Source: Lytechinus variegatus
Taxonomy: Eukaryota; Echinodermata; Echinoidea; Temnopleuroida; Toxopneustidae
Direction: 5' to 3'
Length of the DNA stretch: 64,000 nt
Assembly (NCBI RefSeq): GCF_018143015.1
Contig: NC_054740.1
Coordinates: forward strand, 51,084,240 to 51,148,239
Shown here one piece after another: positions 23,159 to 48,277 of this stretch. The position numbers and the translations under genes were made by a program. The notes under the pieces are model-generated. The model did no database searches and was not told the origin of the DNA. It saw only the letters and a program-made list of their open reading frames with translations. The number at the start of each line of letters is the position of its first letter. The stretch's first letter is position 1.

Positions 23159-23314
23159 TCACGGCTCACATGGTATCTTATATAGACCATGCGTATTAAA
23201 GTCGGGAGTCGTATCCGTGGGCGACATGGCGTTCATGTCGACGTCATCAACGAGAGCAGACATCGGCATGTAATCGTAGTCAGTGCCGTCAAACTTGTCC
23301 ATTACGATGTTGGC
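23159..23314 (-). CDS. RTK exon 17, cytoplasmic tail and stop
   Basis: Acceptor caagtag, phase 0. It encodes 51 residues ending ...YKIPCEP and TGA at 23159-23161. It contains [10 protein letters not shown]: overlapping YxxM motifs at Tyr870 and Tyr872, the form bound by PI3-kinase p85 SH2 domains when phosphorylated (family knowledge). A third tail tyrosine, Tyr902, precedes KIP. Confidence 0.85.
   Translation of the reverse strand, partial: ANIVMDKFDGTDYDYMPMSALVDDVDMNAMSPTDTTPDFNTHGLYKIPCEP

Positions 23315-48277: not shown

Follow-up and report, generated by a model that had tools for sequence, protein, structure and literature searches.

A Lytechinus variegatus receptor tyrosine kinase gene with EGF, CUB-like and sushi modules in its predicted ectodomain

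In a 64,000-nucleotide window of the Lytechinus variegatus genome (NC_054740.1, positions 51,084,240 to 51,148,239), we find a gene that is best explained as a type I receptor tyrosine kinase of an orphan group, apparently single-copy, with an ectodomain built by exon shuffling and a putative output through ligand-driven pairing and PI3-kinase. We give this reading as a whole a probability of roughly 78%. The gene model, the modules, the membrane helix, the intact kinase motifs and a moderately supported grouping with two other kinases of the same genome are what the DNA itself establishes. In order, the 908-residue product carries an EGF module, a CUB, half an EGF, a further EGF, three sushi modules, a stalk, a membrane helix and a tyrosine kinase.

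Gene model and protein modules

The gene lies on the minus strand and runs from 48277 to 23159 of the window in 17 exons and 16 introns. Its spliced reading frame holds 908 codons without a stop, giving a coding sequence of 2727 nt including the stop codon, with the ATG at 48277 and the end of the TGA at 23159. All 16 introns are of the GT...AG type and join exons of compatible phase. In total the introns cover 22,392 bases, and the longest of them, intron 9, separates the membrane exon (exon 9) from the first kinase exon (exon 10). The GC content is 46% in the exons versus 36% in the introns, and among 20,000 random draws of 17 stretches with matching lengths, none was open throughout. Support for exon 1 is limited to its ATG, donor, phase and position. 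An earlier note had read this DNA as one gene for a receptor-type tyrosine kinase whose outer part combines EGF, CUB and sushi modules and is followed by a membrane helix and an intact-looking kinase, and we re-derived the same 17 exons, 16 junctions and 908 residues. The exons are as follows.

48199..48277, minus strand: exon 1, start codon and hydrophobic leader, a probable signal peptide, residues 1-27 (ATG, donor gtaagt, phase 1; leader judged by eye)
46862..46987, minus strand: exon 2, EGF1, residues 27-69, six Cys (Pfam EGF 4.1e-7, 30.6 bits; Cys spacing)
45548..45898, minus strand: exon 3, CUB-like, residues 69-186, two Cys (Pfam CUB, chain 4aqb, fold model)
44177..44245, minus strand: exon 4, incomplete EGF-like module (EGF2), residues 186-209 (four Cys, one completed by exon 5; without a Pfam match)
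43177..43275, minus strand: exon 5, EGF-like module (EGF3), residues 209-242 (six regularly spaced Cys, 211-239; without a Pfam match)
42070..42258, minus strand: exon 6, sushi 1, residues 242-305, six Cys, no Trp (Pfam Sushi 31.2 bits)
41304..41492, minus strand: exon 7, sushi 2, residues 305-368, six Cys, no Trp (Pfam Sushi 23.3 bits)
40381..40578, minus strand: exon 8, sushi 3, residues 368-434, six Cys, no Trp (Pfam Sushi 27.6 bits)
39584..39918, minus strand: exon 9, acidic and Thr/Ser-rich stalk, membrane helix, Cys-rich basic stop-transfer and start of the juxtamembrane part, residues 434-545 (hydropathy; phase-0 donor)
34711..34933, minus strand: exon 10, juxtamembrane part, glycine loop GGGSFG and VAVK lysine (splice model, motifs)
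33906..34019, minus strand: exon 11, kinase N-lobe, helix C region (splice model, Pfam)
31565..31731, minus strand: exon 12, kinase hinge and short insert (splice model, alignment to human kinases)
28291..28413, minus strand: exon 13, HRDLAARN catalytic loop, DFG and activation-loop Tyr749 (splice model, motifs)
27478..27589, minus strand: exon 14, APE and C-lobe (splice model, motifs)
25584..25680, minus strand: exon 15, kinase C-lobe (splice model)
24012..24111, minus strand: exon 16, end of the kinase domain (splice model)
23159..23314, minus strand: exon 17, C-terminal tail with DYDYMPM (Tyr870, Tyr872) and YKIP (Tyr902), stop (splice model, motifs; without a Pfam match)

Exons 2-8 form seven consecutive module exons, each with a length divisible by three and phase 1 at both ends. 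Such phase-1 symmetric exons are a classical sign of module shuffling. When the whole protein is compared with Pfam, Sushi is matched over three stretches (4.4e-14), EGF marginally exceeds its cut-off (2.5e-4; 21.7 versus 21.5 bits) and CUB falls below it (0.0029; 18.3 versus 21.4 bits). When each module is searched on its own, the curated cut-offs are exceeded by EGF1, by all three sushi exons and by the CUB exon, the last with 22.9 bits against 21.4 over the first half of the profile only; the piece made of exons 4 and 5 matches no Pfam family. The series EGF, CUB, EGF, EGF, three sushi proposed in the earlier note is thus upheld by Pfam for EGF1, CUB and sushi, while EGF2 has four cysteines instead of six and EGF3 combines a regular six-cysteine pattern with the lack of a Pfam match.

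A comparison with solved structures aligns the full length of the CUB exon with chain 4aqb (MASP-1/MAP-1), at 22.2 bits and an E-value of 5.5e-4. In a single-sequence model of low confidence (pLDDT 50), the first four fold ranks go to PCPE-1, MAP-1, MASP-1/3 and MASP-2; unrelated beta folds such as CBM32 appear from rank 6, and no fold match reaches E ≤ 0.001. The corresponding model of sushi 2 (pLDDT 65) is best matched by factor H CCP 10-11 and also by beta-2-glycoprotein I, none with E ≤ 0.001. The fold matches of these poor models are only supportive. When the sushi part is compared with solved structures, CR1, CR2 and factor H lead, and residues 118-270 of E-selectin (4c16) align collinearly with EGF3, sushi 1 and sushi 2 (31.8 bits, 31st of 45 matches).

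The membrane helix occupies about residues 491-513 in exon 9, and hydropathy along the entire protein peaks here, with 2.86 at 493-511. The kinase domain (PF07714, 1.7e-82, residues 586-848) is complete, with intact catalytic motifs GGGSFG, VAVK, HRDLAARN, DFG and APE and a single activation-loop tyrosine, Tyr749. Three tail tyrosines follow, Tyr870 and Tyr872 in DYDYMPM and Tyr902 in YKIP, and YMPM corresponds to the textbook motif that PI3-kinase binds through its p85 subunit. Ig, cadherin, FN3, ephrin-binding, SAM, serine protease and C-type lectin domains are all absent from the eight Pfam matches of the protein.

Within the 64-kb window, tblastn at E ≤ 10 finds, besides the gene's own exons, only sushi exons matching each other and two hits at chance level (E 6.6 and 9.7). 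Intron 9 contains a tRNA-like sequence on the minus strand (36135-36206; tRNA-Sec (TCA) by ARAGORN, Rfam tRNA 44.4 bits) that is probably the head of a tRNA-derived SINE. Outside the gene, a 69-base tandem repeat (19689-20466; 11.3 copies, 96% match) sits inside a plus-strand open frame of 309 residues. A LINE-type endonuclease fragment (59422-59823; PF14529, 25.6 bits, below the cut-off of 27.4) overlaps a 199-base repeat in three copies (59609-60213). Nine of the ten flanking open frames scanned have no Pfam family, and one has a weak LINE endonuclease match.

The kinase and its relatives

Of the best 60 PDB chains, 59 are FGFR1-4 and one is an EGFR chain. The latter (9p9u, 318 bits) ranks first as an artefact of two kinase copies in the chain, which contribute 158 bits each. 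Local alignment to seven human kinases ranks FGFR1 (210.5 bits) ahead of TIE2 (204.0), RET (202.9), KIT (202.0), VEGFR2 (195.3), MET (180.7) and EGFR (160.0). Identities to these seven range from 33 to 42%, and FGFR1 and VEGFR2 are 55% identical to each other. The alignment with the human kinases reveals no long kinase insert, a feature of the VEGFR/KIT family.

To place the kinase within its own genome (869.6 Mb in 33 contigs), 21 kinase places were compared with the human kinases. The resulting tree of 22 sequences comprises our kinase, the seven human kinases, 13 sets of joined BLAST pieces and the kinase at C8:20.40 Mb, typed from its exons; four places on C17 (coverage below 195 residues) and the loci L023, L024 and L029 (coverage 156-177) were left out. 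Our kinase pairs with the C8:20.40 Mb kinase at 92.1/88 (93/86 in the other run), and both join the kinase at C8:29.78 Mb at 96.4/86 (96.9/87 in the other run), which amounts to moderate support for a three-gene group. Pairing our kinase with the C8:29.78 Mb kinase in place of the C8:20.40 Mb one is not rejected (AU 0.268). The C8:20.40 Mb kinase, 50.0% identical (136/272), is the nearest kinase relative found.

The earlier note had likened the kinase to FGFR and VEGFR types, a close kinship that the trees do not support. Joining our kinase alone to FGFR is rejected with 22 kinases (AU 0.0096), in a separate run (0.0143) and with eight kinases (0.0052 and 0.028). The VEGFR/KIT placement is likewise rejected with 22 kinases (AU 0.027) and in the separate run (0.026), but not with eight (0.126). 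The genome moreover has its own FGFR at C12:9.93 Mb, which groups with human FGFR1 at 97.7/100 and 98.7/100 in two tree runs. A position of our kinase alone with RET is rejected (AU 0.017 with 22 kinases, 0.0225 with eight, and likewise in the separate run), and a position with MET in the eight-kinase set is not (AU 0.0865). For the three-gene group as a whole, neither FGFR (AU 0.244) nor TIE2 (AU 0.401) is rejected.

TIE2 deserves separate consideration, as the gene could be this animal's TIE receptor with its Ig and FN3 modules replaced. TIE ectodomains consist of Ig, EGF and FN3 modules, so that EGF modules are common to TIE1/TIE2 and our protein, and TIE2 is the most identical of the seven human kinases (41.8% and 41.5%). 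Grouping our kinase alone with TIE2 is not rejected in any of the three sets (AU 0.63 with eight kinases, 0.092 in the separate run and 0.11 with 22 kinases). However, FGFR1 scores slightly above TIE2, Pfam finds no Ig or FN3 match in a protein that has a CUB and three sushi modules, and the best tree joins our kinase to the two C8 kinases rather than to TIE2. We therefore regard a TIE identity as unlikely. The kinase phylogeny called for in the earlier note places our kinase with two C8 kinases in the best tree and leaves TIE2 unrejected.

The C8:20.40 Mb gene (L013, L033 and L034; about C8:20.394-20.424 Mb) encodes an LDLa module (40.3 bits), three EGF modules (27.0, 34.8 and 37.3 bits), a membrane exon and the kinase, with phase-1 entry into the modules and the membrane exon judged by eye. 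It resembles our gene in its phase-1 modules, in the presence of EGF and in the layout from membrane exon to kinase, and differs in that LDLa and three EGF modules take the place of CUB and sushi within the upstream region read (to C8:20424000, about 17 kb before the first kinase exon, in a screen for cysteine-rich frames that a CUB exon could escape). Two related kinases thus appear to stand behind different outer parts. All six introns of the C8:20.40 Mb kinase, placed by eye, fall at the positions seen in our gene, one of them a column off with an extra residue typed. The shared introns lend weak support to the orphan group, because all of these places but the one after TLG, five in number, are equally compatible with the FGFR locus of the genome, as judged from BLAST match ends. 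Near C8:29772600, the C8:29.78 Mb locus has a membrane stretch by eye, and the 8 kb before it contain five cysteine-rich frames, none of which looks like a module by eye.

The layout at C8:20.40 Mb also bears on whether our model has fused two neighboring genes, one for an EGF/CUB/sushi membrane protein and one for a separate kinase. Such a fusion would fit the length of intron 9 (4650 bases) and the fact that exon 9 reads into this intron for 13 residues before a stop. Yet the first Met of the kinase exons lies no earlier than residue 91 of that part, so that these exons, as modeled, could not start a gene alone and other upstream exons would be required. The exon 9 donor and the exon 10 acceptor fit in phase 0, and the C8:20.40 Mb relative has the same layout with its membrane exon less than 1 kb ahead of the first kinase exon. 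Two separate genes are, in our judgment, quite improbable. Even less credible is a non-functional or unexpressed chimera, which the incomplete EGF2 and the two-cysteine CUB might suggest, given 2727 open nucleotides, intact splice sites and kinase motifs, and a nearest kinase relative only 50% identical, which makes the gene probably old yet still open.

The searches of the genome point to an apparently single-copy gene. At least 106 matches to the ectodomain were found, seven of them its own exons and the other 99 at 25-48% identity; 97 of the listed non-self matches hit the sushi region and the remaining two, each on C10 and 29% identical, the CUB exon. The kinase gave at least 111 matches, eight of them its own exons, and the other 103 reach a maximum of 60% identity, over 43 residues. 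No near copy of the gene is among the matches listed for its own 870 Mb genome. Viral and prokaryote contigs gave 6 and 32 pattern matches, respectively, with none confirmed by tblastn. Elsewhere on C8, seven scattered kinase matches between 31.24 and 32.32 Mb, each 41-53 residues long at 36-42% identity and five of them interrupted by a stop, are perhaps an expanded or decaying kinase cluster.

Origin of the ectodomain

Under the preferred reading of an orphan receptor kinase assembled from modules, phase-1 exon shuffling would have placed EGF, CUB-like, half-EGF, EGF and three sushi exons before an exon that encodes the stalk and the membrane helix. A relative of the CUB exon on C10 (29% identity) is flanked by EGF exons, and the EGF exon after this CUB starts with DGDDC, where exon 4 of our gene starts with DGNNC. 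No kinase match falls at this EGF/CUB locus among the matches listed by both kinase searches. Among sea urchin proteins, the fibropellins combine EGF modules with a CUB module, and the EGF-CUB-EGF piece probably derives from a matrix gene of this type.

Sushi exons occur in arrays at C11:14.74-14.86, C11:22.85-22.88, C13:27.42-27.46 and C9:12.16-12.17 Mb, with up to 48% identity to sushi 3. Their spacing is partly even, at about 2.07 kb on part of C11 and mostly about 3.5 kb on C13.

Known receptors and a putative signaling role

FGFR, VEGFR, KIT and RET share with our protein the type I receptor layout and the broad class of kinase. The FGFR ectodomain is composed of Ig modules, and our protein differs from all four in lacking an Ig, cadherin or FN3 match. 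Proteases of the MASP/C1r type have the order CUB-EGF-CUB-sushi-sushi-serine protease; the CUB exon matches a MASP-1/MAP-1 chain weakly, but our protein has a single CUB, three sushi modules, a kinase and no protease match. The description of the ectodomain in the earlier note as complement-protease-like is consequently too strong. Selectins consist of a C-type lectin domain, EGF and sushi, and their EGF-sushi part aligns with our protein, which has no lectin match and carries a kinase.

Further parallels among receptor kinases come from the literature, surveyed as titles and the starts of abstracts with few subscription papers, in which we found no receptor with this module order. The earlier view that no vertebrate receptor kinase has it stands within that survey, with the qualification that Eph receptors share sushi and EGF. 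According to one article (PMC8260879), Eph receptors comprise a ligand-binding domain, one sushi, one EGF, two FN3 and a SAM domain. They thus resemble our protein in placing sushi and EGF ahead of a membrane helix and kinase, and differ in having one sushi module against three and in the ephrin-binding, FN3 and SAM domains for which our protein has no match. In the sponge Halichondria panicea, kinase genes with sushi domains are mentioned among the genes regulated after LPS (PMC8242945), a likeness to our gene at the level of description. The combination therefore has precedent in the sushi and EGF modules of Eph receptors and in the sushi kinases of a sponge. Shuffled ectodomains are documented across receptor kinases (PMC8662651), and the domain mix described here fits that picture. 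The gene is a new mix of known parts and not a new kind of molecule.

The outer part may bind a multivalent matrix or cell-surface ligand, and binding would pair two receptors. The paired receptors would phosphorylate each other, at Tyr749 first and then in the tail, where YMPM (Tyr872) could recruit the p85 subunit of PI3-kinase. Sushi proteins could plausibly engage receptors of this type, by analogy with the matrix protein SVEP1, which carries sushi and EGF domains and binds TIE1 (PMC10129328); the SVEP1-TIE1 pair is said to act via PI3K/Akt (PMC12549020). This analogy has no direct bearing on our gene.

A bolder proposal is that the members of the orphan group act as modular sensors, combining a common kind of kinase with varied matrix- and complement-type outer parts, and that the present receptor turns deposited complement- or matrix-type ligands, via its CUB and sushi modules, directly into PI3-kinase signaling; we hold this to be doubtful. 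The preferred reading, an apparently single-copy orphan receptor kinase with a shuffled ectodomain, means that one genome would hold two related kinases with quite different outer parts made of phase-1 modules. It also offers a concrete gene with which to ask whether ligands of the complement or matrix type are sensed by a receptor kinase in an invertebrate.
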